Assembly (NCBI GenBank): GCA_000802095.1
Contig: JUEB01000002.1
Coordinates: forward strand, 1 to 58,430
Direction of reading: 5' to 3'
Origin: Peptococcaceae bacterium BICA1-7
GTDB lineage: Bacteria > Bacillota > Desulfotomaculia > Desulfotomaculales > Desulfocucumaceae
Length of the DNA stretch: 58,430 nt
The notes beneath the pieces are model-generated. The model made no database searches. It was given only the letters and a program-made list of their open reading frames with translations, and was not told the DNA's origin. Shown here in pieces: positions 2,862-47,989 of this stretch; the stretch's first letter is position 1; each line of letters begins with the position of its first letter. The translations under genes were made by a program, and so were the position numbers.

Positions 2862-3192
2862 TGGGTTCACCTCTTCCCCTTTCTTTATAAAACCCGACTC
2901 TCGTCGCATACGTCATGGTATACACGCCATAAAATTATACCACAACGTTTTTTTCACTGCAAGATGTAGCTAAAAAGAATGGCCACCGGGTCCGGAGACG
3001 GGAGCTCGTAGCTTTAGCTGAACAGGGGCTTCAGATGGGGACCCTACCCCACTTGAAGCAAAAAGCTGCAAATTTGGCTTCTCAGACTACTGACAAGACC
3101 ATTTCTAATAATCATACCTCCCGTCTCCTGACCAGAGGTATTACCCTTAAGCATCTCCCGTCTACCGTCTCCTGACCTTAAAGCAATGCCCG
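2862..3192. other. Intergenic region with heptad units and a long hairpin
   Basis: No gene is evident. Heptad units of the GGAGACG type lie at about 2989-3005, and inverted copies (CCCGTCTCCTGACC) at 3121-3138 and 3157-3178. Between the last two is the head motif GGTATTACCCTTAAGCAT. In the middle (about 3027-3060) GCTTCAGATGGGG and CCCCACTTGAAGC form a hairpin with a short loop. Confidence 0.6.
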
Positions 3193-4464
3193 TTAGCGGA
3201 TCGGCCTGCTGAAATTGCCTATTTCAACTCCCGGAACAGACCTTAAGGAATCAATAAGGCCCTCTATCCCTATTATATCCCCTTGGGCCGGGGGGATGTT
3301 TGCATAGAGATAATCCGGGTCTATATTGAGATTTCTCAGCTGCACCATATTGACCCCTGTTTCACCTATAAGTGAAACCAGGGCCTCTATTTCCTCCTCC
3401 CGGTCGGTTAGTCCGGGGAAAACCAGCAAATTTAAAGATGTAAACACTCCCTGGCCCACCGCAGCCCTTATCGAGGCTTGCACATCCAGGAGGCTGTACC
3501 CCCGGGGCCTGTGATACCGGCTGTAAACCTCTTCCCTGGCGCTTATTAGGCTCACCCTCATGGAATCAAGGCCTGACCCGGCCAACTCTTCCACCGCCCG
3601 GGTTATTCCGGCATTTGTATTAATGTTTATTGTACCCCCTGGGGTTTTTTTCCTTATCCTGGCCAGTGCTTTAACTATAATGTCAGCCGAGGTGGTAGGC
3701 TCCCCCTCGCATCCCTGGCCGAAGCTTATGATATTGTCTCTGCCGGCCTCCAGGTGCTTAATACCCAGCTCAGACACCTCTTCCACCGTAGGCGAAAAAT
3801 CAATCCTTTTTTGTGGTGACGGGCAGCACTCGGCGGGCTGGAGAGATATGCATCCAAGACATCCGGCATTACAGATCCTGGATACAGGGAGTCCCCCCTC
3901 CCAGCGCCGGTAAAATATATTCTGGGCGGTAAAGCAGCCGTAATCCAGAGAGCACCGGGCAAGCTGCCTCACTATTCTGCTGCCTGGCAGCTCTGAAGTA
4001 AATGCCTCCACCAGCCCGGGCAGATCCGGGGTGTTGTAATGTTTGGGATCCCACCTTGTGGGGTTGTCTGTTTTAGCAGCGGCCACATAAACCTTCCCCC
4101 TGCGCCAGGCCACTGCGGAATAGCCCAGAAGGGGAAGAGGGCTCTGGGCGTTCCTGCAACGAAAGGCAGGCAGCAAAGTTCTGGTATACCCCTGGGGCAA
4201 AAGCGCCCCTACGGCAAAGGCAGGACCCTCCCCCCCATGCTCCCTCTCCACCAGTGAAAAACGTCCTCCAGAGAAAATCCCTACCGGGTTTCCCCCGGGA
4301 ATCATTACCAGGGAAGCTCCGGGCGGTAGTTCGATAAGGTCCTCCCGTTCCATCTCCAGAAACCTGTCCCCTGTCCTGCCCACCGCCCCGACAGTGGGAT
4401 GGTCATAACAATTTCCCTCTTTATCAGTATAAAGCAAACGCATACTACTAGTGCTCATAAGCAT
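3193..4464 (-). CDS. Radical SAM protein of unknown substrate
   Basis: A 423-residue protein. CNAGCLGC near residue 198 has the C-x3-C-x2-C spacing of the radical SAM [4Fe-4S] cluster; FGQGCEGEPTT resembles the glycine-rich SAM-binding segment, and ININTNAG and MRVSLISA are barrel strands. An N-terminal domain of about 190 residues precedes the barrel and I do not recognise it. The function is unknown; the fold suggests 5'-deoxyadenosyl radical chemistry. Several in-frame ATGs (4464, 4458, 4443) are possible. The GGGAG before the first belongs to the head of a heptad repeat, so the repeat seems to provide the ribosome site. Confidence 0.75.
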   Translation of the reverse strand: MLMSTSSMRLLYTDKEGNCYDHPTVGAVGRTGDRFLEMEREDLIELPPGASLVMIPGGNPVGIFSGGRFSLVEREHGGEGPAFAVGALLPQGYTRTLLPAFRCRNAQSPLPLLGYSAVAWRRGKVYVAAAKTDNPTRWDPKHYNTPDLPGLVEAFTSELPGSRIVRQLARCSLDYGCFTAQNIFYRRWEGGLPVSRICNAGCLGCISLQPAECCPSPQKRIDFSPTVEEVSELGIKHLEAGRDNIISFGQGCEGEPTTSADIIVKALARIRKKTPGGTININTNAGITRAVEELAGSGLDSMRVSLISAREEVYSRYHRPRGYSLLDVQASIRAAVGQGVFTSLNLLVFPGLTDREEEIEALVSLIGETGVNMVQLRNLNIDPDYLYANIPPAQGDIIGIEGLIDSLRSVPGVEIGNFSRPIR

Positions 4465-4471
4465 TACTCCC

Positions 4472-4509
4472 GGTCGGAATACAGAATACAGAAGTCAGAA
4501 TTCAGAATA
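4472..4509. repeat. Heptad array 2a, left arm of an inverted pair
   Basis: GGTCGG followed by AATACAGAATACAG and further CAGAAGT/CAGAATT units. It is the inverted partner of 4643-4679; together they form arms of about 37 bases around a 130-base loop. Confidence 0.85.
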
Positions 4510-4579
4510 GTAAAAGCCTTTCTTACAGGCACAAAAATAATATCATGCCTCAGTTTTTTTAACAAGCAACAGGAATAAG

Positions 4580-4606
4580 TTAGGCCGGCTCACTCGCCGG
4601 CCTTTT
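4580..4606. terminator. GC-rich hairpin, possible terminator
   Basis: GGCCGGC (4583-4589) and GCCGGCC (4596-4602) form a perfect stem followed by TTTT on the plus strand. The neighbouring genes are on the minus strand, where the T run is on the wrong side, so its action on the sensor-gene transcript is uncertain. It sits in the loop between heptad arrays 2a and 2b. Confidence 0.5.
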
Positions 4607-4642
4607 AAGCTCCTAAAATAACTGCTAAGGAATGCCCCATCC

Positions 4643-4679
4643 ATTCTGGATTCTGAATTCTGTATTCTGAATTCCGACC
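4643..4679. repeat. Heptad array 2b, right arm
   Basis: Units ATTCTGG, ATTCTGA, ATTCTGT, ATTCTGA end in CCGACC, the reverse complement of array 2a. Confidence 0.85.
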
Positions 4680-4702
4680 GAGGGAAATACCCCTGAGGCA
4701 GT

Positions 4703-7660
4703 TTACTGTCCCTCCAGCAGCTTTATAAAAACCTTCACCAAAATCGGATCAAACTGCACCTCGGAACACCTTTCCAGCTCGGCCAGGGCCTCTTTCTTGG
4801 GAATGGCCTTACGGTATGGCCGGTCACTGGTCATTGCGTCGTAGGCATCAGCAATGGACAGTATCCTGCATTCCAGGGGTATCTCGTCTCCTTTGAGCCT
4901 TAGAGGGTAGCCGTTTCCGTTCCACCACTCATGGTGCTTCAAAACCCAGTCCGCAATCGATGCCAGGTCCGGCGCCGATTGGGCTATACGGAAGCCTATC
5001 TCACAGTGCCTCTTCATTTCATTATACTCTTCCTCGGTAAGGGGGCCGGCTTTAAAGAGTATACGGTCCGGTATGCCAACCTTTCCTATATCGTGAAACT
5101 GGGCAAACAGCCGCAGCTCATTGGCCTTTCTCTCCGAAAGACCCATCACCAGGGCCATATCCTCTACCAGGTCCTGAATTCTGTCCCCATGTCCCTCAGT
5201 TATAAAATCTCTGGCCTCCAGAGCCTTCATCAGGGTGCTGACTATAACGCTCCGGGCGCTCTGGCTATGGTGCAGCTTTTCACGATACATGTTGTTATCG
5301 GCATCTTTAAACACCTGACCAAGGCCCATTGAACTGTCCACGGCGGTGGAAAACCCGATGGACAGGCTTAATGGAAGGTCTGGATTATCATCGTTATAAC
5401 AATTAACGTTTTCCCTCATTTTAGCGCAGCAGGACTCAACACCCGCCCGGTTAATGCCCGGAAGCAGTATTGCAAACTCGTCTCCCCCTATACGGGACAC
5501 TATCACGCCGGGATCAAATGACCGCCTGCTTACATCTGCCGCAGCAATAAGGAGGGTGTCGCCAGCACTGTGACCAAGGCTGTCATTAACCAGCTTAAGC
5601 CCGTCAACATCACACAGAATTATGCTCAAGGGATAACTGTTCCCTCCCTCAAGACGGCGCATTTCCTCCTCAAAATAAGTTCTGTTATATAGTCCGGTCA
5701 GTGAATCGTGAAGGCTGAGATACTTTAGCCGGTCCTCTATTTCTTTCCTTTGGGTAATGTCCCTGATGGAACAGATAGCCCCTACAAAATTCCCCTGTCT
5801 GTCTATAAGGGGTGAAGCCTTGACCCATATATAGCCGCCTTTATTTTTGTTAAGTGTGGAAATAAAAACCTCGGCAAACAGGGTACTCCCCTTTCTTTCC
5901 ACATAGTCATACATTCCCTCGGCACTGACATCATCAGAAAAAATCAAGTCTATAATCACAGGCCTGGGCTCCCCATAAAAAGGAATGGCATAAGCAAAAT
6001 CACCCCTGCCGATCATATCCTCCTTCGGCGCCCCGGACATTTCTTCTATAGCCCTGTTCCAGGCAATGATAATTCTATTCTGATCAAGCACAAAGGTGGC
6101 GTCAGGAAGGAACTCTATTATATCCTGCAGCTGCTGGTGGGCGTAAGCGAGCTTTTCAGCAGCCAGCCTGCGCTGGGTGATATCCCGTATAATTCCGAAA
6201 TAACCGAGAAACTCACCTTCGGAGAAAAAAGGTACCCCGTTTGTCTCCATAAATACAGGAAAGCGGTCTTTATGCAATACTTTTATCTCAAAAGATCGGA
6301 AAGACTTAAGCTGGTCAGCAAAGGACCTGAAAATGTTGTTTACCCGCCTGGCCTCCTCTTTAGCCATTAGATGAAAAACCGTTCTGCCAACCACCTCTTC
6401 GGGTGAATAACCAAGCATATCCTTTATCTGGGGGCTAACATAAGTAAACACTCCCCGGGGGTCAACCTCCCAGACCCAGTCGTCGGTGGACTCAACCATA
6501 CTGCGGAAGCGCTCTTCACTTTTTCTTAGCGCCTCTTCCTTCTGTCTCTCCAAAGTCATATCCCTGAAAACAAGAATAACCCCAAGCATTTCCCCGGTCT
6601 GATCACAAATTGGGGCCGCACTGTCAGCAATTGACTTTACTGTGCCGTCCCGGGAAATAAGCGAGGTGTGGTTGGCCAGTCCAACAGTCTGTCCCTCTTC
6701 AAGAACTTTCTGCACCGGATTTTCCACCGGCTCACCGGTGTACTCGTTAACTATTATAAATATTTCCTCCAAGGGACGGCCAAGGGCCTCTCCCTCGCTC
6801 CACCCGGTAAGTGACTGGGCTACCGGGTTAATAATGGTTACTCTTCCGGACCTGTCCACGGCAATAACGGCGTCACCGATGCTGGTAAGTGTTACAGCAA
6901 GCCTTTCCTTCTCCTTGAATAGTGTCTTCTCGGCAGTTTTTCTTTCGGTAATATCTTCATAGATGGCATACATTCCAATATGTTTGTTATCCAACACCAC
7001 CGGATAGCCCACCAGAGAGACATTGACAAGGCTTCCATCCTTACGCTTTCTTACCGTATCCTCCTGTATAACTCCCCCGGCAAAAACAGTTTTTGAATTG
7101 TGAAAGGCATCTTCCATAAAGTCTTCCGGCACAATCACATCATTTATTGGAATGCCCCTTATTTCATCAATAGAATATTGAAAAAGTTTCTCAAAGCCAC
7201 CGTTTATCTCAACAAACCTGTCCTGGTCATCCATCATGGCGATGGCATGAGGTGAGTTTAAAAAGAGCTGCTGAAAGTGTACCTTTTGTATATTGAGCTC
7301 ATTACTAACTTTTGTCTGGCTGGTAATATCTACAAATTGACCCAGAGAGGCAGCCCTTCCGTCGTATTCTATGTTTGAAAAAAAAATACTTAAATAGCTG
7401 ACCTCCCCTTGAGGGTTCAACACGCGGAATAAATAGGTCTCCGGAGCTTTACCGCTTAACCTGAGGGAGGAATAATTTTCCACCATTTCCCTGTCAAGGA
7501 AATACACCAGTTCCATACATGGCCTGGTCAGCAGTTCCTCCCGGCTATACCCGCTGATTTCAACCATTTTAGGATTAACATAGCGAAAATATCCATCCTG
7601 CACAACAAATACAGGAAGGGGCAAAAAGTGAAAGGCTTTTTCACAAACATCCGGTGACAT
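4703..7660 (-). CDS. PAS(x5)-GGDEF-HD-GYP cyclic-di-GMP protein
   Basis: A 985-residue signalling protein without transmembrane segments. Five PAS modules are visible at roughly 8-110, 128-240, 250-370, 378-500 and 515-640. A GGDEF domain follows (SRIGGDEFAIL near 750; CDVDGLKLVNDSLGH upstream), then HD-GYP (HDIGKVGIP near 860; HHEWWNGNGYP near 910). Both catalytic signatures look intact, so it could make and degrade cyclic-di-GMP. RSFD lies eight residues before GGDEF, not the five usual for an inhibitory I-site. The ligands sensed are unknown. AAAGGAA precedes the ATG. Confidence 0.93.
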   Translation of the reverse strand: MSPDVCEKAFHFLPLPVFVVQDGYFRYVNPKMVEISGYSREELLTRPCMELVYFLDREMVENYSSLRLSGKAPETYLFRVLNPQGEVSYLSIFFSNIEYDGRAASLGQFVDITSQTKVSNELNIQKVHFQQLFLNSPHAIAMMDDQDRFVEINGGFEKLFQYSIDEIRGIPINDVIVPEDFMEDAFHNSKTVFAGGVIQEDTVRKRKDGSLVNVSLVGYPVVLDNKHIGMYAIYEDITERKTAEKTLFKEKERLAVTLTSIGDAVIAVDRSGRVTIINPVAQSLTGWSEGEALGRPLEEIFIIVNEYTGEPVENPVQKVLEEGQTVGLANHTSLISRDGTVKSIADSAAPICDQTGEMLGVILVFRDMTLERQKEEALRKSEERFRSMVESTDDWVWEVDPRGVFTYVSPQIKDMLGYSPEEVVGRTVFHLMAKEEARRVNNIFRSFADQLKSFRSFEIKVLHKDRFPVFMETNGVPFFSEGEFLGYFGIIRDITQRRLAAEKLAYAHQQLQDIIEFLPDATFVLDQNRIIIAWNRAIEEMSGAPKEDMIGRGDFAYAIPFYGEPRPVIIDLIFSDDVSAEGMYDYVERKGSTLFAEVFISTLNKNKGGYIWVKASPLIDRQGNFVGAICSIRDITQRKEIEDRLKYLSLHDSLTGLYNRTYFEEEMRRLEGGNSYPLSIILCDVDGLKLVNDSLGHSAGDTLLIAAADVSRRSFDPGVIVSRIGGDEFAILLPGINRAGVESCCAKMRENVNCYNDDNPDLPLSLSIGFSTAVDSSMGLGQVFKDADNNMYREKLHHSQSARSVIVSTLMKALEARDFITEGHGDRIQDLVEDMALVMGLSERKANELRLFAQFHDIGKVGIPDRILFKAGPLTEEEYNEMKRHCEIGFRIAQSAPDLASIADWVLKHHEWWNGNGYPLRLKGDEIPLECRILSIADAYDAMTSDRPYRKAIPKKEALAELERCSEVQFDPILVKVFIKLLEGQ

Positions 7661-8844: not shown

Positions 8845-8950
8845 TTTGTATTCCTTCGAAATACACCTCTATTCTTGTTTTATAAGGCAGTCCGCTTACT
8901 ATTATTACCAATTTGGGCTAATCTAATACTTATACTGAAAGACTTATTCT

Positions 8951-9025
8951 GTCGGAATACAAAGGAAAGGGGACACACCTGCTGAAGTTTGGGTATTTCT
9001 TTGTAGACAGGAATTTCCCCGATTG
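8951..9025. repeat. GGGGACA element, copy 1
   Basis: A segment of about 65 bases starting GGGGACACACCTGCTGAAG and ending TTCCCCG, with near-identical copies at 22742-22806 and 47890-47965. Its ends are a short inverted repeat (GGGGACA/TGTCCCC in the better copies). It is bordered by GTCGGAATACA on the left and by heptads on the right, as if inserted into a heptad array. Confidence 0.75.
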
Positions 9026-9050
9026 GGACCAGAATACAGAATTCAGAATA
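9026..9050. repeat. Heptad array 3a
   Basis: GGACC then AGAATACAGAATTCAGAATA; inverted partner of 9168-9197. The rho terminator lies between them. Confidence 0.8.
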
Positions 9051-9108
9051 ATTTTGAAAGAATCAACTTACCGCAGATATGGGGCAACAGTTCGTCAAAT
9101 ATTATAGC

Positions 9109-9141
9109 TAAAAGCAAAACAGCCCTTGAAAGAGCTGTTAC
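9109..9141 (-). terminator. Rho-independent terminator of rho
   Basis: On the minus strand AACAGC and GCTGTT form a stem around CTCTTTCAAGG, followed by TTGCTTTT. It lies about 85 bases after the rho stop codon, inside the heptad pair. Confidence 0.65.
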
Positions 9142-9167
9142 TGAAGGCCGGCGGGGAATGCCTGGCC

Positions 9168-9197
9168 ATTCTGACTTCTGTATTCTGTATTCCGACC
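9168..9197. repeat. Heptad array 3b
   Basis: ATTCTGACTTCTGTATTCTG followed by TATTCCGACC, the inverted form of array 3a. Confidence 0.8.
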
Positions 9198-9223
9198 GGG
9201 AAGTAGTGCCTATAAGCAAGGAA

Positions 9224-11226: not shown

Positions 11227-11874
11227 CTATTGTTTTGGCATTTTTTCCCAGTCGGACAGGAATTTTTGAATGCCCATCCCGGTAAGGGGATGCTCCAGCA
11301 TCTGCATAATAACCTTGTATGGAACGGTAGCAATATCTGACCCGGCAAGGGCGGCCTGGGTCACATGCAAAGGGTGCCTGATGCTGGCGGCAATAATTTC
11401 TGTGTCAATATCATAATTGGAGTATATCTCCATTATCTCCCCGATAAGGTTCATGCCATCATACCCGATATCATCCAGCCTGCCCACAAAGGGGCTGACA
11501 TAGGTAGCACCCGCCAGAGCGGCCAGCAAAGCCTGGTTGGATGAAAAAACAAGGGTTACATTGGTCTTTATCCCCCTGCCTGAAAGCTCCTTTACGGCCT
11601 TTAGCCCCTCGGCGTTCATGGGTACCTTCACTACTATATTGGGGTGTATAGCCGCAAGTTCCCCGGCCTCGGCTATGATCCCGGGAGCCTCGGTGCTTAC
11701 TGCCTCAGCGCTTATAGGTCCATTTACAATGGCGGTAATTTCCCTGACCACCTGGATGAAGTCCCTGCCTTCCCTGGCTATCAGGGAGGGATTGGTAGTT
11801 ACCCCACTGATCACTCCCAGCTCACTGGCAGCTCTTATTTCCTCTATGTTGGCGGTATCGATGAAAATCTTAAT
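11227..11874 (-). CDS. Transaldolase, fructose-6-phosphate aldolase type, with apparent ATT start
   Basis: Class I aldolase of the small transaldolase/FSA family. The Schiff-base lysine is in NIVVKVPM near residue 83, and [17 protein letters not shown] and [11 protein letters not shown] are family blocks. The first ATG/GTG/TTG codon in frame (GTG at 11814) would remove the first strand, including the catalytic Asp6. Reading from an ATT at 11874 gives (M)[19 protein letters not shown], the standard N-terminus, with a family-length total of 215 residues. AGGAGG lies eight bases before that ATT. The ribosome site is part of a heptad-repeat head. A one-base indel after the nearby ATG at 11879 is the alternative explanation. 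Confidence 0.87.
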
Positions 11875-11889
11875 AGCATTTCCCTCCTG

Positions 11890-12060
11890 TCGGAATACAG
11901 AATACAGAAGTCAGAATCCAGAATAATTTGTGCTAACAGGACTGAACCTTCAGGTCGGGAGACAGGATACAGGAAACGAGGGTTTTACGCTATGCCCCTG
12001 ATGCTGAAAGAAATTCCCAAGCCCTTCTGAATTCTGTATTCTGAGTTCTGTATTCCGACC
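11890..12060. repeat. Heptad arrays 4a-4c between fba and the transaldolase
   Basis: Array 4a (11890-11925) starts GTCGG and has CAGAATA-type units. 4b (11953-11978) starts GGTCGG with GAGACAG units. 4c (12025-12060) is inverted (TTCTGAATTCTG...) and ends CCGACC. No coding frame lies between them, and the gap is otherwise featureless. Confidence 0.85.
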
Positions 12061-12083
12061 CAAGGTAATACCTTTATACCATG

Positions 12084-19951: not shown

Positions 19952-20002
19952 TGCCTAAATACTTCCTCCTTAAAACCACATGCTTATACTGATATCCTTA
20001 TC

Positions 20003-20039
20003 GGTCGGAATACAGAACCCAGAATTCAGAATTCAGAAT
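20003..20039. repeat. Heptad array 5a
   Basis: GGTCGG followed by AATACAGAACCCAGAATTCAG and more CAGAATT units upstream of argS; inverted partner of 20297-20332. Confidence 0.85.
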
Positions 20040-20164
20040 GGATTGAGCATTCCTTTTATTCTCATCCTCTGATGGCGCCGCTTGTGGCATGGCCAACTAC
20101 CCTGATGAGGGATGATATGGCGATTTTGTATATTATACTCTTTTTCCTGAGTAACCAAAAGGAT

Positions 20165-20192
20165 GGAAAAAAGCCGCCCTTGAGCGGCGGCG
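20165..20192 (-). terminator. Terminator downstream of iorB
   Basis: On the minus strand GCCGCC and GGCGGC form a stem followed by TTTTTT. It lies 157 bases after the iorB stop and between heptad arrays 5a and 5b. Confidence 0.75.
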
Positions 20193-20208
20193 CATTGAAA
20201 TTACTAAA

Positions 20209-20332
20209 TGGTAATACCTCCGGTCGGAGACAGAATACAGGAGACAAAATAACCCGTATCCCGCAGTATCGACCTATCAGGAATGCCCGGATGTGATTCT
20301 GAATTCTGAATTCTGGGTTCTGTATTCTGACC
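20209..20332. repeat. Heptad arrays 5b and 5c with head motif
   Basis: GGTAATACCTCCGGTCGG (head) leads into GAGACAGAATACAGGAGACA (20222-20250). After 46 bases an inverted array, ATTCTGAATTCTG..., runs 20297-20332 and ends just before the iorB stop. Confidence 0.8.
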
Positions 20333-20348
20333 TATAAGTCACTCAGTA

Positions 20349-20924
20349 TTAGCCTATGCCATACCCGGCAGCGAAGGCCTTCCTGTTTACATCCAGGAAC
20401 CTGGCAGGCACCCTGGCGGCCAGCGCCTCCTGCCAGTTATCCTCCGCAAAAGGCAGCCTCCTGGCCAGCAGCCCCACCAGAACCACATTGGCAGCCCTGG
20501 CATTTCCGCACTCCCTAGCTGTGCCCAGGGCATCCAGCACTACTGTGTCCTTCACTTTTGCTTTAAGATAGCCGGTTATATCCTGAGGGTATTGTGCAAG
20601 GCCTGCCAGAACAGGTACCGGGTAGATGGCCTGGTCGTTTACCAGAAGGCTTCCCCCGGGCTTTAAGTAGCTCAGCCAGCGCAAGGCTTCCAGCTTTTCA
20701 AAGGCCAGTATTACATCGGCCCTGCCCTCCTCTATAAGGGGTGAATAAACCTTTTCGCCCATACGGACCTGGGTGACCACGCTGCCTCCCCTCTGGGCCA
20801 TACCGTGTATTTCAGATACTTTAATGTCATATCCGGCAGCCTGGCCCACATGGGCCAGTATCCTGCTGGCCAGAATTGTTCCCTGGCCTCCCACGCCAAC
20901 CAGAAGAATATCTATCTCACGCAC
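20349..20924 (-). CDS. iorB: Indolepyruvate:ferredoxin oxidoreductase, beta subunit
   Basis: Beta subunit of the IorAB enzyme, which oxidatively decarboxylates aryl pyruvates to aryl-acetyl-CoA with ferredoxin as acceptor. The protein has 191 residues of the POR gamma-type domain: LLVGVGGQGTILASRIL at the N-terminus and SEIHGMAQRGGSVVTQVRMG near residue 40 are the signature. It overlaps the end of iorA by eight bases, indicating coupled translation. With paaK just upstream, the neighbourhood suggests aromatic amino acid oxidation or its reverse. Confidence 0.93.
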   Translation of the reverse strand: MREIDILLVGVGGQGTILASRILAHVGQAAGYDIKVSEIHGMAQRGGSVVTQVRMGEKVYSPLIEEGRADVILAFEKLEALRWLSYLKPGGSLLVNDQAIYPVPVLAGLAQYPQDITGYLKAKVKDTVVLDALGTARECGNARAANVVLVGLLARRLPFAEDNWQEALAARVPARFLDVNRKAFAAGYGIG

Positions 20925-22806: not shown

Positions 22807-22878
22807 GTGGCTTTTGTTCTCCCCCCATTCCTAACTCCTAATTCCCATGCTTATATACTTAAAAGAATGCATAAACTA

Positions 22879-22914
22879 TTCTGGCTCCTGGCTTCTGGCT
22901 CCTGAATTCCGACC
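22879..22914. repeat. Heptad array 6
   Basis: ATTCTGGCTCCTGGCTTCTG and following units end in CCGACC, just downstream of the paaK stop codon. Confidence 0.8.
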
Positions 22915-22933
22915 GTCAAATCTATCCTAAAAG

Positions 22934-24232
22934 CTATTTTTTCCTATTATCAATAATCCTCTTGGCCTTACCCTGGCTCCTCTCAATGGAGTAAGGCTCC
23001 ACCAGCCTTACTCTGGCGCCTATGGACAAAACACTTTGCAGCCGGGATTTTATCCTTCCCTCCAGGGCCTCAAGGTCTTTAAAGCTCCCTGTGAAAGCCT
23101 TTTCTGTAGGCTCCACCTGGACCTCCATCATATCCAGATAACCTTTCTTGGACAGTATTATCTGGTAGTGGGGGGATATCCCGTCAATCTCCATAAGCAC
23201 ACTCTCTATCTGGGAGGGGAATACATTTACCCCGGAAATAATCAGCATATCGTCGGAGCGGCCGGTAACCTTGCGCATCCTGGCAGTTGTTCTTCCACAT
23301 ATGCAGGGCTCGTAGCTCAGTTTTGTAATATCCCTGGTGCGGTACCTTATAACCGGGAAGGCCTCCTTGGTAAGGGTGGTGATCACCAGCTCACCCTCCT
23401 CGCCGGGACCCATGGGCTCTCCGGTATCAGGGTCGATTACCTCCACCAAAAAATGATCCTCATTTATATGCATGCCCAGTGCCTCAATGCACTCCCCGGA
23501 CACTCCCGGACCCATTACCTCGCTGAGCCCGTAATTATCGGTGGCCCTTATCCCCCAGGCCTTCTCCAGCTCTGAGCGCATATTTTCCGACCAGGCCTCT
23601 GCCCCGAACAGCCCTACCCTGAGCTTTAAGTCTGCCGGCCCCATCCCCATACGGCGGGCTGCCTCGGCCAGGTGCAGCGCATAGGACGGAGTGCCAACCA
23701 GCACAGTAGTCCCAAAATCTTTCATAAGCATGATCTGCTTTTCAGTATTGCCCACCGAAGAGGGAACTATAGCCACACCGGCCTTCTCCAGCCCGTAGTG
23801 GAGCCCGAAGGCCCCGGTAAAAAGACCGTAGCCGAAGGTAATCTGGGCCACATCCTCGTCAGTGACCCCGGCCATGGACACTATACGGGCAATAAGCTCC
23901 GACCAGGTGTTCAGGTCCTTTTTGGTATACCCCACCACGATAGGCTTTCCGGTAGTTCCCGAGGAGGCGTGCAGTCTGACAACATCCTTCATGGGCGCTG
24001 CAAAGAGGCCGTAAGGGTAATTGTCCCGCAGGGCCAGCTTGGTTGTAAAGGGGAATTTTCCTATGTCCTCCAGGGTGTGCAGGTCCTCGGGGCGGCAGCC
24101 TTCCCTGTCGAACAATTCCCGGTAAAAGGGAACCCGGCTGTATACCAGGGAAAGTGTTTCCTTCAGCCTGTTAAGTTGCAGGTCCTTAAGACGCTCCCTG
24201 TCGATGCACTCGTGTTGAGGGTCCCAAATCAT
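22934..24232 (-). CDS. paaK: Phenylacetate-CoA ligase
   Basis: AMP-forming ligase that activates aryl acetates to CoA thioesters. The protein has 432 residues, the usual PaaK length. [17 protein letters not shown] is the phosphate loop near residue 90; [16 protein letters not shown] and YRTRDITKL are adenylation motifs, and [20 protein letters not shown] starts the C-terminal PaaK domain. Adjacent iorAB makes the same class of CoA esters with ferredoxin reduction, so the three genes could interconvert arylpyruvates, aryl-acetyl-CoA and aryl acetates. Confidence 0.94.
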
Positions 24233-26354: not shown

Positions 26355-26608
26355 AAACAAAAACTCCCGCCCCCACATAAAGGGACGAGAGGTTTTTCTC
26401 GCGGTACCACCCAAATTGGCCGCCACAGCGGCCCACTTAAGACACCCTTTAACGGGGGCTACCGGCGGACTTACTAACCATTTGGTTTTTAGTCCTGCAA
26501 CTCCGGGGCGGCACGGGCTTTTTCATCTGCCAGGCTTTCACCATACCCCGGCTCGCTTAAGACTACCTTATCCCACATTCCCCATCATGGCCTTGCATAT
26601 TCGAAATT
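26355..26608 (-). promoter_or_regulatory. T-box riboswitch upstream of lrp-aminotransferase
   Basis: The minus-strand leader contains the T-box sequence TGGGTGGTACCGCG (about 26416-26399), a distal stem I of canonical form (GAGCCGGGG, then GGTG, then AAGCCTGG), and a terminator: CTCTCGTCCC pairs with GGGGCGGGAG, followed by TTTTTGTTTT. Binding of uncharged tRNA would favour the antiterminator and expression. By position, before a purine and CCCC, the specifier could be GCC (26512-26510; alanine); this is tentative. Confidence 0.92.
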
Positions 26609-26644: not shown

Positions 26645-26684
26645 CAGGAAATCAGTAGTAAATGCTAAAACGGCTTGAATTCCC

Positions 26685-26833
26685 GGTCGGAATACAGAAG
26701 ACAGGAGTCAGAATTCAGAATACAGTGAGGGTAAGAAATGGGGCCTTTTAAAACCCTTAAACCAGCAATAAATGTCTAAATCCTTCTAACTACTGGCTTC
26801 TGGCTTCTGGCTTCTGGCTCCTGGCTCCCGACC
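26685..26833. repeat. Heptad arrays 7a and 7b, inverted pair
   Basis: 7a (26685-26726): GGTCGG then AATACAGAAGACAGGAGTCAG and more. 7b (26790-26833): four GGCTTCT/GGCTCCT units ending CCGACC, next to the ypeB stop. About 60 bases between them hold no clear hairpin. Confidence 0.85.
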
Positions 26834-26844
26834 GTTAAGACAAT

Positions 26845-28215
26845 TTACATAGTAAGCACCCCGCTGTTGGTCTTGATCACCTTCAGCAGCTTAACTTCCT
26901 CCCCGGTTAGCGCATCTATATAAACAAGGAAAACATCCTTTTCCAGCCTGCCCTGAAACTCATAGGTGAGCACTTCACTGTCCACAGTTTTAGGTATTAG
27001 AGCCAGCCGCCCGGGAGTAACATCCTCCAATTTGGGGCTCAGTTTCTCCCTGGCCTGGGTGACCGACAGCTTGGCCTGGGGCAGCTTTCTTTCATTGTGC
27101 GCCATCCAGTAATTGGCGGCATCAAAGCCCACCACCTGGCCGTTGTCCAGAGAAACGGTAACCTTTATCTGGTCGGGATACAGAATTACCTTCCCCTGGG
27201 TGGCCGCATAATTGTACACCGCCAGGTTATCCCGGACTTCATAATAGGTGGACTCCATCTCCTTAAAGCCCCGGTCCTCCAGGAAACTGCCCGCAATGTC
27301 CCCGGCCTCCCTTACTGACAGGGCAGCAGCACCGGGAGATCTTGAGTTGAGCATCCAGACAACCTTTCCTCCCCGGCTGGAAACACCCATGGAAATCCTT
27401 TCACCGTTTTGCGCCGGCCTGGGTGTTATATCCACCCGATGAACCGGAATTCTGCCGTTTACAGTACCGGCCACACTGGCGATATAGGTGGTATCCGGCC
27501 TGCTCCCAATAAACTTAAGGGCTATGTCCCTGGCCTGGTCGCCGCTGACCTGGGCTCCCTCCAGTCCTACGGGAGTCTTCTTGACAATATGGTCTGAGAA
27601 GGGCCCGTCATAAATAAGGGTGGGAAACTGCTGCATATTCCTGTCAATAACCTGAAAATTACTGTTGGCCAACTGGGGCCCGGCCCTGCGCAGAACATAC
27701 CTGCTGTCCCTCCTCAGCTCACTTAAGGTAAGGTTGCCGCTGGAAAGATTGGCCTCAACATCTCTCAGCTCTCCATTCAGTGTCTGGGCCTGCTTATAAA
27801 GCTTATTCAGGGTCTGCCACTGATCGTCACTTTTTGAAGCCCCCCCGGCGGTCTGCGTAGCCAGGCTCTGGGAGTAGGCCCCCACCTGGTTTAAAAACTT
27901 GATGGTCCGGGCCACGCTGGCTTCAGTTACCGGTATCTGTCCCAGATTGCTCTGGGCTGCCAGGGACTCCTGCCACAGACCCATAAAAAGCTGGGCATCC
28001 TGCTTTGTTTCTTGCCCCACCAGAGACTTGGACAGTATCACTTCCATATTCTGAACATTATTCATGAGGTTGTAGAAAGCAAGGTTATACTTATTAGTCA
28101 ACGCTGTTTCGGCAGCTTGGCGGGCTGCCATCTGCCCGTAGCCCCAGAGGGCCACCCCTGCCACCAGAAGTATCCCCAACCCCAGTGGAAAAAACCGCCT
28201 GTATTTCCTCAACAC
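26845..28215 (-). CDS. ypeB: Spore germination protein YpeB
   Basis: YpeB localises and stabilises the cortex-lytic enzyme SleB in the spore. The protein has 456 residues from the GTG at 28215, which lies six bases after TAGGAGGG. An N-terminal membrane anchor (about 7-27) precedes a helical region and a C-terminal half with PepSY-like repeats (GDQARDIALKFIGSRP, REAGDIAGSFLEDRGF, TQAREKLSPKLEDVTPG). The ribosome site overlaps the sleB stop codon, so the two genes form a tight operon, as in Bacillus. Confidence 0.93.
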   Translation of the reverse strand: MLRKYRRFFPLGLGILLVAGVALWGYGQMAARQAAETALTNKYNLAFYNLMNNVQNMEVILSKSLVGQETKQDAQLFMGLWQESLAAQSNLGQIPVTEASVARTIKFLNQVGAYSQSLATQTAGGASKSDDQWQTLNKLYKQAQTLNGELRDVEANLSSGNLTLSELRRDSRYVLRRAGPQLANSNFQVIDRNMQQFPTLIYDGPFSDHIVKKTPVGLEGAQVSGDQARDIALKFIGSRPDTTYIASVAGTVNGRIPVHRVDITPRPAQNGERISMGVSSRGGKVVWMLNSRSPGAAALSVREAGDIAGSFLEDRGFKEMESTYYEVRDNLAVYNYAATQGKVILYPDQIKVTVSLDNGQVVGFDAANYWMAHNERKLPQAKLSVTQAREKLSPKLEDVTPGRLALIPKTVDSEVLTYEFQGRLEKDVFLVYIDALTGEEVKLLKVIKTNSGVLTM

Positions 28216-28937: not shown

Positions 28938-29022
28938 ATAAGACCCCCCCTGACAAATAGAGTTTAAAATATTTTGTCTTGAACAAGGTCTAAGTATGTA
29001 CGAGCTTACAGGTATTCTTTAT

Positions 29023-29060
29023 GGTCAGTAGACAGAATACAGGAGACAGGAGACAGAATA
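29023..29060. repeat. Heptad array 8a
   Basis: GGTCAGTAGACAGAATACAG followed by GAGACAG units; inverted partner of array 8b with a terminator between. Confidence 0.85.
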
Positions 29061-29147: not shown

Positions 29148-29190
29148 AGAAAAAACCGTCCGCCAAGGCGATAATCGCCTTGGCGGACGG
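29148..29190 (-). terminator. Strong terminator downstream of the dsrN-like gene
   Basis: CCGTCCGCCAAGGCGA and TCGCCTTGGCGGACGG form a 16-bp perfect stem with a three-base loop; on the minus strand it is followed by TTTTTTC. It ends the ferredoxin-dsrMKC-dsrN transcript. Confidence 0.85.
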
Positions 29191-29221
29191 CAGAAGGTTG
29201 ACTAATAAGGAATACCTGGCA

Positions 29222-29258
29222 ACTTCTGTCTCCTGTCTACTGTCTCCTGTCTCCCGAC
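29222..29258. repeat. Heptad array 8b
   Basis: Units CTTCTGT, CTCCTGT, CTACTGT, CTCCTGT, ending CCCGACA, the inverted form of 8a. Confidence 0.85.
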
Positions 29259-29269
29259 AGAAGCTTCAT

Positions 29270-30673
29270 TCAGCTACTTCTCTTTTCCTTATACTCCCTG
29301 GCCTTCTTCACCAATGCCCCTGCCCATCCTGAACAGGACAGCGCATGCAGATGACTGTAGCAGGCCAGCACATTTTTATATACAGCACCGTCCCGGTGTC
29401 CGTCAACCCCCCACCCCCTGGTTACCCGGAAGCAGAAGGAAACCTTTTCCTCATCTATGTTTTCCACCCTGGAATGGTGAAACTCGTGGGCCTTTATAAC
29501 CGATCCCCGGGGGAAGAAAGGGTTGTCACCCTCCACCTCAATAACCTCATAACCATGGCCCTGGGGCCGGTCAGACATCACCACGTCAAAGGGAAGACAG
29601 CCCGACATGCAGTACTTCCGGTCATTCCAGATAATACTGCCGGAGAGGTACATGAGTCCGCCGCACTCGGCATATACCGGCAGTCCGGCCTCAACACCAT
29701 CCCTGACCGCCCGCCTCAAAATTTCATTGGACTCAATCTTTTCCGCAAAAATCTCGGGAAAGCCACCGCCTATATACAGGGCATCCACATCCGGAAGTGT
29801 TTTGTCGGTAAGGGAGTCTACAAAAACCAGGTCCGCCCCGGAGGACACTAGGGACTCAATGTTCTCAGGATAATAAAAAGTAAATGCCCTGTCCCTGAAT
29901 ACCCCGATAACAGGCCTGTCACCTTCTTCTGCCCGGTCCCCGCAGAAAGGTAGAGTATGGTAGTTCAGGGGGTCTGCGGAACTGGCTACCTCCATTATCT
30001 TATCCATGTCGAAAAAGCTAAGGGCAGCCTTTCCTATTTCGGTGACCGATGCCGCCAGCTCATCCCTTTCGGCAGCAGGGATCAGCCCCAGGTGCCTGTC
30101 CGGAATGGCAAACTGCTGCCCCTTGGGTATTACACCCAGCACCGGGATGCCACAGTACCTTTCAATAGCATCTCTCAGCATTCTTTCATGCCTGGGCCTG
30201 GCCACCTTGTTTAAAATAATCCCGGCCACCTTCAACTCCGGGTCGAAATGCATGAATCCGCTGACCAGCGGGGCCACGCTGCGTGTCATCCGGGTGGAGT
30301 CCACCACCAGGATAAGGGGCGCCCCGATAGCCTTGGCTATTTCTGCCGTACTGCCGCTGCCCTCTATATCAACCCCGTCAAAAAGGCCCATGGCCCCCTC
30401 CACCACGCCAATATCAGCGTCCGCTGTATTCACGGCAAAGGAATTCCTTATAGACTCCCCGGTCATCATGAAGCCGTCCAGGTTTCGGCAGGACCTTCCG
30501 GTAACCATGGTCATCCAGCTGGGATCTATGAAATCGGGGCCTTTTTTAAAAGGCTGCACCACCATGCCGGCACTTTTAAGAGCGGCAAGAATCCCCAGCG
30601 TTACGGTGGTTTTTCCCGATCTGCCGCTGGGGGCGCCCACTACAATGCGCGGTATGTTTTTACTTAACTGCAT
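29270..30673 (-). CDS. dsrN: CbiA/CobB-type amidase, probable DsrN (siroheme amidation)
   Basis: A 467-residue cobyrinate a,c-diamide synthase homologue: an N-terminal ATPase domain (VVGAPSGRSGKTTVTLGIL; GVVEGAMGLFDG) and a C-terminal class I glutaminase-like domain (YIGGGFPEIFAEKI, YAECGGLMYLSGS with the nucleophile Cys, EFHHSRVE). No other cobalamin gene is nearby. In sulfur oxidisers and reducers a CbiA homologue linked to dsr genes is DsrN, thought to amidate the siroheme of DsrAB. It lies 177 bases downstream of dsrC with a hairpin between. A true CbiA role cannot be excluded. Confidence 0.85.
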   Translation of the reverse strand: MQLSKNIPRIVVGAPSGRSGKTTVTLGILAALKSAGMVVQPFKKGPDFIDPSWMTMVTGRSCRNLDGFMMTGESIRNSFAVNTADADIGVVEGAMGLFDGVDIEGSGSTAEIAKAIGAPLILVVDSTRMTRSVAPLVSGFMHFDPELKVAGIILNKVARPRHERMLRDAIERYCGIPVLGVIPKGQQFAIPDRHLGLIPAAERDELAASVTEIGKAALSFFDMDKIMEVASSADPLNYHTLPFCGDRAEEGDRPVIGVFRDRAFTFYYPENIESLVSSGADLVFVDSLTDKTLPDVDALYIGGGFPEIFAEKIESNEILRRAVRDGVEAGLPVYAECGGLMYLSGSIIWNDRKYCMSGCLPFDVVMSDRPQGHGYEVIEVEGDNPFFPRGSVIKAHEFHHSRVENIDEEKVSFCFRVTRGWGVDGHRDGAVYKNVLACYSHLHALSCSGWAGALVKKAREYKEKRSS

Positions 30674-35097: not shown

Positions 35098-36264
35098 ATG
35101 AAAAAGTTTTCGGATAAAGGATCTGCAGGAAGGAATATAATTAAAAGGCCCCAGTGCCCTTTTTGCGGAATGTCCCTGGACAGGCCCAGAGAGCTGGAAA
35201 CCCGCCGGCCCGGCGAAATGCCGGTAGGCTCCTGTGAGGGCTGCGGGGCTGTTTATGCCTTTGATGCAACAGGACGCAATCTGGGGGCCACCTTTATTGA
35301 GGCCCTTGTATTCGGCTGCGATATGGACTGGGATCTTGCCTGGAGCCTTTCTTTAGGTGAGGACTACCTGGAAGCCATGTTGGAAAATTACGATTTGGAA
35401 AGCAATTATATAGTCCCCGGGGGATTTTTTGAAGGCAGAAAAATTCCCGGGGTGCTGTATTTTATAAGGCTGCAAAAGGATATTCAGGAGGCCACCGCCG
35501 GAGGTGTAAAAAGAAACCTTGACCGGGCAGCCGATCCAATTCCGGGATATGCGCCTGAAAACAGAGATTCTTTCAAGCGTTACACAAAAAAAGAAGTGGA
35601 AGAAATTGTAGCTGGCTATCAGGTAGATAAGCTAATGCAGGCCGCCGGACAGGATAAAAAGATTATCCGCATTCTGCAGAGGCTCTTGTGCTCAGATAAC
35701 CTGACCCGCCTTAGATCGGCGGAATTTATAGGCCGGTCGGCCACCATAATTGCCCGGACCGATCCGGGTACCGTTACTGTTCTTCTGCAAAATCTTTTCG
35801 GCTCTCTGTCCGATACCGGGTCTGCCAACCTGGGGGCACTGGATGCCATAGGTGAAATAATTGGCGGCTGTCCCGATGTTTTTATCGGTTATATGCCCGC
35901 CCTTTATCACTTCCTTCAAGAAAGCGACAAGCGCCCGCAAGTGGTCAGGGCACTGGCCAGAATAGCCCAAAAAAGGCCTGATCTGGTCAGGAAAACAATA
36001 TTCAGGCTACTGCCCTACCTCCAGGACTCCGATCCTGAAACCAGAGGCTATACAGCACTGCTCCTGGGTCACCTGAGAGCTCCCGAGGCCAAAGATCACC
36101 TTAAGCCAATAACCGGTGACGGGGCCGGGCTGAATGTTTACACCAAAGGACATTTTGAAAAAAGAACAGTGGGCTTCCTGGCCCAGGAGGCCCTGGAGAG
36201 GATTAGCTCAAAAGAATGGACTTCGGGTCGGGAGACGGGAGACGGGAGACGGGAGACAGAATAA
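35098..36264 (+). CDS. Zinc-ribbon and HEAT-like repeat protein
   Basis: A 388-residue protein. The N-terminus has two cysteine pairs (CPFCGMSL; CEGCGAVY), followed by an acidic region and, from about residue 185, helical repeats resembling HEAT units (FIGRSATIIARTDPGTVTVLLQ; ALARIAQKRPDLVRKTIFRL; GYTALLLGHLRAPEAKDHL). Such proteins are adaptors; the partner is unknown, but location between dsr units suggests sulfite metabolism or its cofactors. The last 13 residues (SGRETGDGRRETE) are encoded by a heptad array and are unlikely to be ancestral. It is followed at once by a bidirectional terminator. Confidence 0.7.
   Translation: MKKFSDKGSAGRNIIKRPQCPFCGMSLDRPRELETRRPGEMPVGSCEGCGAVYAFDATGRNLGATFIEALVFGCDMDWDLAWSLSLGEDYLEAMLENYDLESNYIVPGGFFEGRKIPGVLYFIRLQKDIQEATAGGVKRNLDRAADPIPGYAPENRDSFKRYTKKEVEEIVAGYQVDKLMQAAGQDKKIIRILQRLLCSDNLTRLRSAEFIGRSATIIARTDPGTVTVLLQNLFGSLSDTGSANLGALDAIGEIIGGCPDVFIGYMPALYHFLQESDKRPQVVRALARIAQKRPDLVRKTIFRLLPYLQDSDPETRGYTALLLGHLRAPEAKDHLKPITGDGAGLNVYTKGHFEKRTVGFLAQEALERISSKEWTSGRETGDGRRETE
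36226..36262. repeat. Heptad array 9, inside the 3' end of a coding sequence
   Basis: GGTCGGGAGACGGGAGACGG followed by more GGAGACG units. It overlaps the last 13 codons of the HEAT-like gene, with the stop codon just after the array. Confidence 0.85.
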
Positions 36265-41482: not shown

Positions 41483-42004
41483 ATGAACCAAAATCCTGTA
41501 GCTACCATTGAAATGGGGACCGGCAAACAAATCAAGGTGGAGCTTTATCCCGGGATAGCCCCCAATACTGTAAAAAATTTTATTTCTCTGGCCAACAAGG
41601 GGTTTTATGACGGGCTCATATTCCACAGGGTAATCCCAGGCTTCATGATCCAGGGGGGCTGCCCGCAAGGCACCGGAATGGGAGGCCCGGGGTACTGCAT
41701 AAAGGGTGAGTTCACCGGCAACCGCCACCCCAACAGCCTGGAGCATGACCGGGGAGTCATTTCCATGGCCAGATCAAGCATGCCCGACTCGGCCGGCTCC
41801 CAGTTTTTCATCATGACTAAAAAATCCCCCCACCTGGACGGGCAGTACGCCTCCTTCGGGAAGGTGACCGAGGGCATGGAAGAAGTGGACCGCATAGTCG
41901 GCTCGGAAAGGAATCACCAGGACCGGCCCAATGAGGACCAGCAAATGAAAAAAGTAACCGTGGAGACCTTCGGGGTAGAATACGGGGAGCCGGAACACGC
42001 GTAA
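41483..42004 (+). CDS. Cyclophilin-type peptidyl-prolyl isomerase
   Basis: A 173-residue cytoplasmic prolyl isomerase. FHRVIPGFMIQGGCPQGTG carries the catalytic Arg and the Phe/Met/Gln pocket; ISMARSSMPDSAGSQFFI and LDGQYASFGKV complete the active site. No signal peptide is present. GGAAGATGAATT precedes the ATG. The stop codon overlaps the head motif of a heptad repeat (ATGCTTAAGGGTAATACC begins at 42004). Confidence 0.94.
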   Translation: MNQNPVATIEMGTGKQIKVELYPGIAPNTVKNFISLANKGFYDGLIFHRVIPGFMIQGGCPQGTGMGGPGYCIKGEFTGNRHPNSLEHDRGVISMARSSMPDSAGSQFFIMTKKSPHLDGQYASFGKVTEGMEEVDRIVGSERNHQDRPNEDQQMKKVTVETFGVEYGEPEHA

Positions 42005-42207
42005 TGCTTAAGGGTAATACCTCCGGTCAGGAGACAGGAGACTGCTAACAGGCACAAACACCAGGGTCGGGAGACAGGAGACAGAATTTGTCCAAAGCAT
42101 TCCTTTTTGGATAGCTAATTTGACAGAAGGTCAGACATTAACAGGCATAAAAGGTCAGGCTTTTAAAATCTCCTGTATCCTGTCTCCTGTCTTCTGTCTC
42201 CTGACCC
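42004..42207. repeat. Heptad arrays 10a-10c with head motif
   Basis: The head (42004-42030) reads ATGCTTAAGGGTAATACC, then TCCGGTCAGG. 10a (42025-42044) and 10b (42065-42088, GGTCGGGAGACAGGAGACAG) are plus-oriented; 10c (42169-42207) is inverted, with CTCCTGT/CTTCTGT units ending CTGACC. They fill the gap between convergent cyclophilin and Lrp genes. No classic terminator is seen, so the inverted arrays may themselves form the hairpin. Confidence 0.85.
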
Positions 42208-42222
42208 GTAAAACAATCAGTA

Positions 42223-42639
42223 TCAGCCTTTAATCCTGCCTATGGAAAGGTTCACTCTGTAGTTGCCATAGGCAAGTATCCTGTCCAGCAGGCGGCTCAG
42301 GTCCTCTGAGGAGGCCAGGCTGGCCTCCAGAAGGTAGCATCCCTCCCCACTGGTACGGTGAACACTGATAATCTCTTCATTGCCGGCCGCAAAGGACTCA
42401 AAGGAGTGGTGGCCGGCAGTCTTCATATAAACAGTGATAAATGCCGTTATGGCCCTGCCCATCTTTTCAGTGTTAAGCTTTACCGTATACTCCTCAATGA
42501 TCCCCAGTTCTTCCAGCCTGCGAATCCTGGCTGCCACCGCCTGGCCGGTGAGGTGAACCCTCTGTCCTATCTCCTTCCACTGCATGCGGGAGTTTTTCTG
42601 AAGGCAGCGAATTATTTCCATATCCGTCCAGTCAATCAT
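42223..42639 (-). CDS. Lrp/AsnC-family regulator
   Basis: A 138-residue Lrp-type regulator: HTH in MQWKEIGQRVHLTGQAVAARIRRL (given here in part as KEIGQRVHLTGQAVAARI) and a RAM-type domain (ITAFITVYMKTAG, EGCYLLEASLAS). It is shorter than the regulator at 25843 and has a different effector pocket. AGAGGGG precedes the ATG. It is divergent from the MBL-fold gene, which it may control. Confidence 0.9.
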   Translation of the reverse strand: MIDWTDMEIIRCLQKNSRMQWKEIGQRVHLTGQAVAARIRRLEELGIIEEYTVKLNTEKMGRAITAFITVYMKTAGHHSFESFAAGNEEIISVHRTSGEGCYLLEASLASSEDLSRLLDRILAYGNYRVNLSIGRIKG

Positions 42640-47889: not shown

Positions 47890-47989
47890 TCGGAATTCAA
47901 AGGAATGGGGACACACCTGCTGAAGTTGTAGTATTTCATAGAGGACAGGAATGTCCCCGGCTGGGAGTCAGAATACAGAATTTAGAATG
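47890..47989. repeat. GGGGACA element, copy 3, inside heptad array 12
   Basis: GTCGGAATTCA precedes ATGGGGACACACCTGCTGAAG, and GGAATGTCCCCGG closes it; AGTCAGAATACAGAATTTAG heptads continue from 47965. The arrangement equals that of copy 1: an element between the head and the body of a heptad array. Confidence 0.78.

Follow-up and report, generated by a model that had tools for sequence, protein, structure and literature searches.

Inward-facing heptad-repeat palindromes at gene ends of Peptococcaceae bacterium BICA1-7, and period-seven arms of unrelated sequence at the same sites in its relatives

Heptad repeats are known from several bacterial phyla, and Peptococcaceae bacterium BICA1-7, with 168 repeat arms in a quarter of its genome, makes their origin testable: are they mobile DNA, or the product of a process that makes palindromes in sevens? 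Either answer bears on the making of bacterial intergenic DNA and on the growth of riboswitch loops and RNA spacers. The question arises at positions 4472–4679 of contig C2, the whole of which (58,430 nucleotides, hereafter ‘the window’) was analyzed here as part of a 4.75 Mb genome in 33 contigs. On its left side this locus carries GGTCGG followed by AATACAG AATACAG AAGTCAG AATTCAG AAT; the right side mirrors the left and ends in CCGACC, and a GGCCGGC...GCCGGCC hairpin lies in the middle.

An earlier note, made from the letters alone, had described degenerate heptad arrays, many of them inverted, in at least twelve gaps of the window, and had named four pairs (4472/4643, 9026/9168, 20003/20297 and 29023/29222). 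All four pairs are present. Profile searches found 24 arms, of which 23 are spread over 12 gaps and one, a weak 12-bit match at 27165–27186, falls inside a called gene; facing pairs are present in seven of the gaps (4455/4704, 9030/9219, 11862/12083, 19979/20356, 26658/26846, 28998/29274 and 42001/42232). Period-7 and inverted-repeat searches recovered the arrays and inverted pairs independently of the profiles. The features, with arms written ‘>’ or ‘<’ so that ‘><’ is an inward-facing pair, are as follows:

536–605, − strand: single arm (profile, 44 bits)
3118–3200, − strand: two direct arms, type B (profile; the orthologous gap of the sister species G002 holds a ‘><’ type A pair)
4455–4530, + strand: ‘>’ arm, type A, with outer box, GGTCGG, four heptads and inner box (profile, 61 bits; sequence)
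4583–4602, no strand assigned: GC hairpin between the arms, with a T-run on the + strand only (by eye; within the predicted RNA fold)
4617–4704, − strand: ‘<’ arm, type A, mate of 4455–4530 (profile, 67 bits; inverted-repeat search)
8950–9053, + strand: ‘>’ arm interrupted by an unrelated repeat of ∼68 bp with GGGGACACACC at about 8962–9029 (by eye; inner part 9030–9053 by profile)
9114–9139, − strand: terminator-like hairpin between arms (by eye)
9156–9219, − strand: ‘<’ arm, type A (profile, 42 bits)
11862–11933, + strand: ‘>’ arm, type A, its outer box overlapping the start of a TAL/FSA gene (profile, 55 bits; Pfam)
11928–11996, + strand: second ‘>’ arm, type B (profile, 36 bits)
12003–12083, − strand: ‘<’ arm, type A (profile, 61 bits)
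19979–20061, + strand: ‘>’ arm, type A (profile, 71 bits)
20165–20192, − strand: intrinsic-terminator-like hairpin between arms (by eye)
20197–20249, + strand: inner ‘>’ arm, type B (profile, 27 bits)
20267–20356, − strand: ‘<’ arm, type A (profile, 60 bits)
22858–22940, − strand: single arm (profile, 58 bits)
26658–26722, + strand: ‘>’ arm, type A (profile, 56 bits)
26797–26846, − strand: ‘<’ arm with CTGGCTT units (profile, 39 bits; period-7 search)
28998–29060, + strand: ‘>’ arm rich in CAGGAGA (profile, 44 bits)
29149–29190, − strand: intrinsic-terminator-like hairpin between arms (by eye)
29197–29274, − strand: ‘<’ arm (profile, 47 bits)
36202–36263, + strand: single arm with CGGGAGA units, overlapping the end of a gene model (profile, 27 bits)
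42001–42112, + strand: two tandem ‘>’ arms, type B, in a gap between convergent genes (profile, 40 and 37 bits)
42169–42232, − strand: ‘<’ arm (profile, 44 bits)
47964–48010, + strand: weak single arm (profile, 21 bits)

Hairpins do lie between the arms of the four named pairs, as had been stated, but the one at 4583–4602 is no obvious terminator for the flanking genes, because its T-run is on the + strand and both genes run opposite. The arm placed at 9026 is real, but it is only the inner stretch of a longer arm, which begins at 8950, is split by the ∼68-bp repeat, and is uninterrupted in G002. The inserted repeat itself (window 8962–9029) has dozens of matches in relatives, most of them in G002. 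Two neighboring features can be recorded here: the TAL/FSA gene (window 11815–11880, − strand; identity from Pfam) seems, by eye, to have a non-ATG start (ATT or ATA after GGAGG), as it does in three related genomes, and a T-box leader at 26378–26597 (− strand) directly adjoins a heptad pair.

The anatomy of the arms was derived from 97 leftmost arms and two profiles. An arm is 50–90 bp long and consists, in order, of an outer box (roughly GCTTATACTGATATTCTTT in type A, roughly TGCTTAAAGGTATTACTTCC in type B), GGTCRG, CAGRANN heptads, AAT or GAG, and then often an inner box (roughly GGTTTGGGCATTCCTTATAAG), whose reverse complement resembles the outer box by eye. The boxes rest on the aligned arms and their mutual likeness on inspection by eye, since a weight matrix of the outer box had no power as an independent motif (584 matches against 510 in the control at one threshold). 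The borders are shared by many loci; the GGTCGG/CCGACC border first described exists, but in the looser form GGTCRG, with variants such as GGTCAG at 29023 and 42025, TGTCGG at 11888, and CTGACC ending at 20332 and 42206. CAGAATT units abound in type A and CAGGAGA units in type B, and type B arms can run in series as modules of ∼31 nt (by eye). Type A pairs most often have four units in each arm (21 of 41 pairs in BICA1-7 and G002 together). The 950 units counted are mostly AATT (193), GAGA (145), AATA (134), AATC (122), AAGC (81), GAGT (61), AAGT (60) and GAGC (39); GATN units are scarce (9). Mates lie 1 to 414 bp apart, and their centers are usually unlike one another across loci, although two gaps of one contig have 169 nt in common at 77%, arms and center included. 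Arms in facing pairs score modestly higher than single arms (medians 42.1 bits, n = 198, and 36.8 bits, n = 81; p = 0.017). The arms match no Rfam family at gathering scores. A separate repeat, ∼250 bp long and containing 9-nt units (CACAGAGGA) as well as a GGCCGC hairpin, is often joined to heptad arms (C26:187017–187479, C11:241007–241365, C26:80080–80487 and C26:115202–115566; 82–89% identity in the three best gap pairs).

These heptad arms are not a chance effect. Our sample of BICA1-7 comprised 1,258,430 bp (the window, C26:1–400k, C11:1–340k, C24:1–60k and C33:1–400k), stretches that were not chosen at random but open large contigs in which matches had been seen before; that of G002 comprised 922,478 bp, and genes in both came from a purpose-made caller. 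Training of the profiles drew on arms from the first 858 kb, which left C33:1–400k and G002 outside the training set. In the 1.26 Mb of BICA1-7 there were 168 arms, whereas the reversed control had none; 163 of the arms are intergenic, though 83% of the sampled DNA is coding. The window is arm-rich: it makes up 58 kb of the 1,258-kb sample and has 24 of the 168 arms. Genome-wide, the pattern GGTCGGAATACAGAATNCAG with up to two mismatches gave 192 matches against 0 in the reversed control, and the looser scan used to choose seeds gave 237 against 8; the profile control on reversed sequence gave one match at E up to 1. Arm density in G002 is biased upwards because its contigs were mostly picked from repeat-bearing lists; tests of orientation and position are less affected by that choice.

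The orientation of neighboring arms within a gap follows one rule. In BICA1-7 we counted 46 ‘><’, 12 ‘>>’, 15 ‘<<’ and no ‘<>’ pairs, and in G002 the corresponding numbers were 53, 5, 5 and 0; over both genomes 99 of 136 neighboring pairs face inward and none outward, where independent orientations would make about one quarter ‘<>’. Inward-facing heptad palindromes are thus a real, non-random and abundant family in BICA1-7. Position relative to genes is also biased. Among gaps of at least 100 bp, arms occur in 23/71 convergent, 60/382 tandem and 4/126 divergent gaps of BICA1-7 and in 25/55, 52/295 and 9/88 of G002. A stop codon lies no more than 12 nt from the outer end in 56 of the 93 cases in BICA1-7 (mean 33.9, maximum 43 in 500 random placements) and in 57 of 92 in G002 (mean 44.1, maximum 52), a start codon in only 4 of 44 and 8 of 57 cases, respectively. 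Proximity to stop codons therefore exceeds the maximum of the null placements in both genomes, so that the 3′-end enrichment, the pairing and the inward orientation that had been suggested all hold. Single arms in tandem gaps run ‘>’ along transcription by 19 to 6 in BICA1-7 but by 13 to 11 in G002; orientation is consequently weak relative to genes and strong relative to the mate.

Placement after stop codons would be expected if the arms were selected 3′-end structures, the paired arms forming long RNA duplexes that stabilize the mRNAs upstream, insulate genes or aid termination. The predicted fold of a transcript of window positions 4440–4710 (−117 kcal/mol, z −9.6) is consistent with this, as is the finding that mates belong to one subtype beyond chance (34/46 in BICA1-7 against 23.7 expected; 46/53 in G002 against 38.6). 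Across subtypes, mates match each other better than swapped mates do (9 of 5000 permutations as good). Within subtypes, however, true mates have no advantage over swapped ones (equalled in 2458 of 5000 permutations for BICA1-7 and 4912 of 5000 for G002), so that the long duplexes proposed earlier find no support as structures specific to each pair: the complementarity expected of a regulatory RNA duplex at 3′ ends does not extend beyond subtype. Terminators, counted with a simple purpose-made finder in the first 858 kb, were about equally common in gaps with and without arms. Gene-sense terminators occurred in 20/48 tandem gaps with arms and 76/215 without, and in 14/19 convergent gaps with arms and 21/32 without; those in paired gaps lay between facing arms (13 in 2215 bp), outside them (9 in 2238 bp) or inside arms (2). 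The framing of terminators, put forward earlier as a special feature, is probably a side effect of the places in which the elements are tolerated. An association with terminators was rejected, enrichment in arm-bearing gaps not being clear, and the elements do not look like a dedicated gene-ending system. Where a terminator does lie between the arms, moreover, the second arm would mostly go untranscribed. In favor of selected 3′-end structures there remain two further observations, described below, namely arms kept in both species at many orthologous gaps and related elements in transcribed sites; against them stand the many differences between species in presence and absence. On balance we consider this explanation unlikely.

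Comparison of 273 orthologous gaps between BICA1-7 and G002 (mean identity of one flanking gene 87%) showed that the elements come and go between species, where the earlier note had looked to variation between strains. Arms occurred in 39 of these gaps, 20 in both species, 6 in BICA1-7 only and 13 in G002 only; the 19 one-sided gaps are an upper estimate, because some ‘absent’ calls are effects of gene models or thresholds (at C2:36264, for example, the BICA1-7 arm sits in a gene model). Random orientation, random placement, a lack of excess pairing and a lack of variation, which were to have counted against that note, were accordingly not what we found. By eye, alignment shows a gap of 393 bp at C26:44560 against 9 bp in G002, and at C26:78532 G002 seems to join two outer boxes without the interior. 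The orthologous-gap alignments inspected, which were the cases with a shorter gap of at most 260 bp, established neither a target-site duplication nor a clean junction at an empty site. One gap (window 2862–3192) has switched subtype, with two type B arms in BICA1-7 and two type A arms in G002, and the gap at 8845–9223 carries its pair in three species (G000, G002 and G001) at 70–90% gene identity; the pair was not detected in the orthologous gap of G005.

Between orthologous arms the aligned units (96–97) are identical at 99, 90, 99, 80, 99, 76 and 60% for the successive positions C, A, G, R, A, N and N, figures in which constraint is overstated because the detector of orthologous units favors CAGRA. 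The contrast between 99% at C, G and the second A and 76 and 60% at the free positions hints at constraint beyond neutral decay, and would suit a protein that binds DNA or RNA at arrayed sites whose register is set by the heptad. So would the narrow vocabulary of units (GATN, 9/950), and the excerpted text of PMC2700814 has the Geobacter authors proposing IHF/HU-type proteins for similar paired sites. The detector's preference for CAGRA weakens the first of these points, and a combination of two founder types with G-to-A mutation may explain why GATN is scarce. A distance between mates that varies from 1 to 414 bp also speaks against binding-site arrays, as do unit sequences that differ wholly between families at one site (see below), and we regard this account as quite improbable.

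We put at about even chances a reading in which the arms are dispersed, non-autonomous copies of a palindromic repeat, REPIN- or BIME-like in behavior, that spread, decay and are tolerated mainly at gene ends. The unit would be an inward-facing pair of arms (outer box, GGTCRG, typically four CAGRANN in type A, inner box) around a variable center. Copies would spread by means of some machinery, pairs would decay into single arms, and copies would be tolerated chiefly in the stretch that runs from a stop codon to the next transcription unit, other positions being harmful. We infer that the copies are mobile and do not originate on the spot, that a single arm is what is left of an element, and that transcript hairpins are incidental. 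Shared borders, the inward-pair rule, the preference for gene ends, the differences between species, the higher scores of paired arms, the two gaps alike through arms and center, and the core-bearing element and ‘><’ arrays of other genomes (below) favor this reading; the failure to find a partner, a target-site duplication or a clean empty site, the varied centers, the well-kept positions of the units and the unrelated arms at shared sites (below) weigh against it.

Of the options offered previously, non-autonomous mobile DNA is the best-fitting, but a partner enzyme was not found at the Y1 transposase loci searched. BICA1-7 has five Y1 transposases, and 45 matches were found in 13 of 14 other genomes searched. 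None of 30 loci read among those 45 matches (13 genomes) had a CAGRA array of at least three units within ∼1.5 kb, and the five loci of BICA1-7 had a single weak arm of 5 bits; a RAYT/REPIN partner was rejected on these grounds. Facing arms 0.3–4 kb apart occurred three times in the 1.26-Mb sample, two of the three enclosing 2 and 4 genes, and nothing there was convincing as an autonomous element.

The bordered pattern was found in 6 of 41 genomes, BICA1-7 included, and five of these six belong to its family, in which three of eight genomes lack it. Among 299 genomes of the phylum, 17 (BICA1-7 included) had a borderless heptad pattern when three mismatches were allowed, and the other 282 were heptad-free. 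In seven other genomes 13 of 14 neighboring array pairs were ‘><’, and the sole ‘<>’ is the joint of two adjacent elements; four contigs of the MAG SKS1.bin126 with neighboring arms gave 6 ‘><’, 5 ‘>>’, 5 ‘<<’ and no ‘<>’. One ‘><’ pair (L035, 2336–2433) lies on a contig binned as Gemmatimonadaceae, which may reflect transfer or misbinning. A different element, with heptad arms around a 22-nt core (CGAGACGATAAACCGTTCTC), occurred at 14 places in 4 of 15 genomes from three families (G003, of the BICA1-7 family and another genus; G280 and G326, family f46; G149, family f51). A heptad array adjoins that core in 10 of the 12 loci read, and does so on both sides in seven.

Heptads are not confined to CAGRANN. 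Intergenic tandem arrays of BICA1-7 have period 7 (77 arrays), 14 (39), 21 (5) or 9 (13), with at most 4 at any other period from 3 to 20 and 0–1 in Markov simulation; G002 has 94 at period 7. The two genomes together contain 168 CAGRA arrays and 51 of other units (54 before three AT-only or nearly AT-only arrays were dropped), the latter comprising 26 distinct units when rotations and strands are counted as one. An inverted partner lies within 250 bp of 103 of the 168 CAGRA arrays (direct 7, background 8) and of 17 of the 51 others (direct 1, background 0), or 14 of 47 when four ACGGGAG arrays, which are type B variants, are left out.

Elements related in this way occupy an RNA loop and RNA spacers, in the window as well as elsewhere:

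44916–45133, − strand: c-di-AMP riboswitch holding an 86-nt insertion
44980–45065, − strand: the 86-nt inverted-heptad insertion (CGTCRG family) in the variable loop of that riboswitch (ends by eye)
57925–57960, no strand assigned: heptad array of the GACGTCC family in the 23S-5S spacer
58077–58114, no strand assigned: heptad array of the AACCTCC family in the 23S-5S spacer

The same riboswitch loop carries GTGAGAA-type arms in the G002 orthologue, and riboswitch copies by the same upstream gene carry CAGTAGT-like arms in G003 and G006 and are only 130 nt long in G001. The 28 riboswitch matches in eight genomes comprise 13 of 198–289 nt and 15 of 129–162 nt, with clear heptads in some, not all, of the long loops. 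In tRNA spacers an element with the hairpin core TTGTTGGAATTGGC...GCCAATTCC has TTCGATG, TTCGAAN or GTGAGAN arms according to locus, and its arm sequence varies by locus and species (C11:117299–117414 in BICA1-7; L292, L300, L299 and L306). A strict core pattern gave seven sites, three with heptad-like flanks on both sides; a looser one gave 24 places in eight genomes against 7 in the control, of which 16 became loci. Left and right arms around the core tend to be of one family (217 of 20,000 permutations as good), a value that is only indicative because the nine loci (eight of those 16 plus one riboswitch locus, L280) were picked by eye for their heptad flanks. Inverted period-7 arms of unrelated sequence thus stand at identical sites in relatives, the riboswitch loop included, and a single mobile family does not explain them.

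These arrays bear most directly on the possibility that arms are both made and renewed where they stand, through replication slippage by 7 nt at a time and through arm-to-arm copying at hairpins (template switching). Such an origin would account for the dominance of period 7 and its multiples, for the inverted partners of arrays with other units and for the tendency of arms around a conserved core to be of one family; the excerpted text of PMC4692102 also cites a proposed link between heptads and the stretch of DNA that lies in the active site of the polymerase (its footprint). Fresh slippage, however, would give identical units, whereas those observed are degenerate at set positions, and neither the borders and boxes that many loci have in common beyond their heptads nor the prevalence of four units per side would follow from it. 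We hold this origin to be rather improbable. Equally doubtful, in our estimate, is a dedicated process, independent of sequence, by which hairpin arms are built and renewed 7 nt at a time, with both arms switching units together. The 7-nt period, the inverted pairing and in some cases the core at the center would then persist while the units of the two arms change jointly, hence the unrelated arms in one riboswitch loop or tRNA spacer across sister species; the GGTCRG/CAGRANN elements would merely be the most abundant product of that process in BICA1-7.

How do these elements compare with known systems, on the reading of dispersed palindromic copies? BIMEs are mosaic in build and prefer gene ends. 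Both properties are seen in the BICA1-7 arms, in which the REP motif was not identified. The pairs resemble MITEs in having terminal inverted repeats, but their centers usually differ, unlike those of a simple MITE. Cyanobacterial STRR sequences are tandem heptads in gaps, and heptad repeats reportedly occur within the RNase P RNA of cyanobacteria (the subject, by its title, of a 1997 paper by Vioque). By their descriptions, STRR and small dispersed repeats of cyanobacteria are set apart from the BICA1-7 arms, since their units differ. The excerpted text of PMC4692102 mentions only a few inverted pairs, for one Nostoc heptad. TAACTGA repeats of Beggiatoaceae, as described in PMC4679880, are intergenic many-copy heptads like those of BICA1-7 but are direct rather than inverted, and lie mostly just upstream of start codons.

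REPINs are dispersed extragenic inverted pairs whose paired copies are better conserved than singles (PMC3116915, in excerpt). The inverted doublet is likewise the main extragenic unit in BICA1-7, and doublets outscore singlets modestly; the arms are nevertheless heptad arrays with boxes, 50–90 bp long, rather than the short palindromic REPs of REPINs and BIMEs, and an association with RAYTs was not found at the 30 Y1 loci read. A limited literature search did not turn up the form with borders, nor the orientation statistics, nor the switching of families at one site.

The nearest published relatives come from Xanthomonas and Geobacter. According to excerpts of PMC4692102, two Xanthomonas genomes carry GGGAATC heptads, mostly as four units, which form 70 and 75 close convergent pairs; 83% are kept in the same context, and length and sequence are variable. 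That unit is G-rich and treated as forming G-quadruplexes, and the GGTCRG border and boxes present in BICA1-7 are not seen in the text examined. Excerpts of PMC2700814 describe MTYCTGA heptads (class 3; five units, eight pairs) in Geobacter metallireducens, read as sites of a global regulator, perhaps IHF/HU. BICA1-7 shares this unit family (reverse complement TCAGRAK), and the legend implies opposite strands; the Geobacter sites are few, the BICA1-7 copies many. To call the BICA1-7 arrangement its own system, as the earlier note did, is therefore too strong, convergent Xanthomonas pairs and paired Geobacter heptads having been published already. Paired heptads of this kind are in print without an accepted explanation, and the BICA1-7 elements, being degenerate heptads in close convergent intergenic pairs, are of the same kind.
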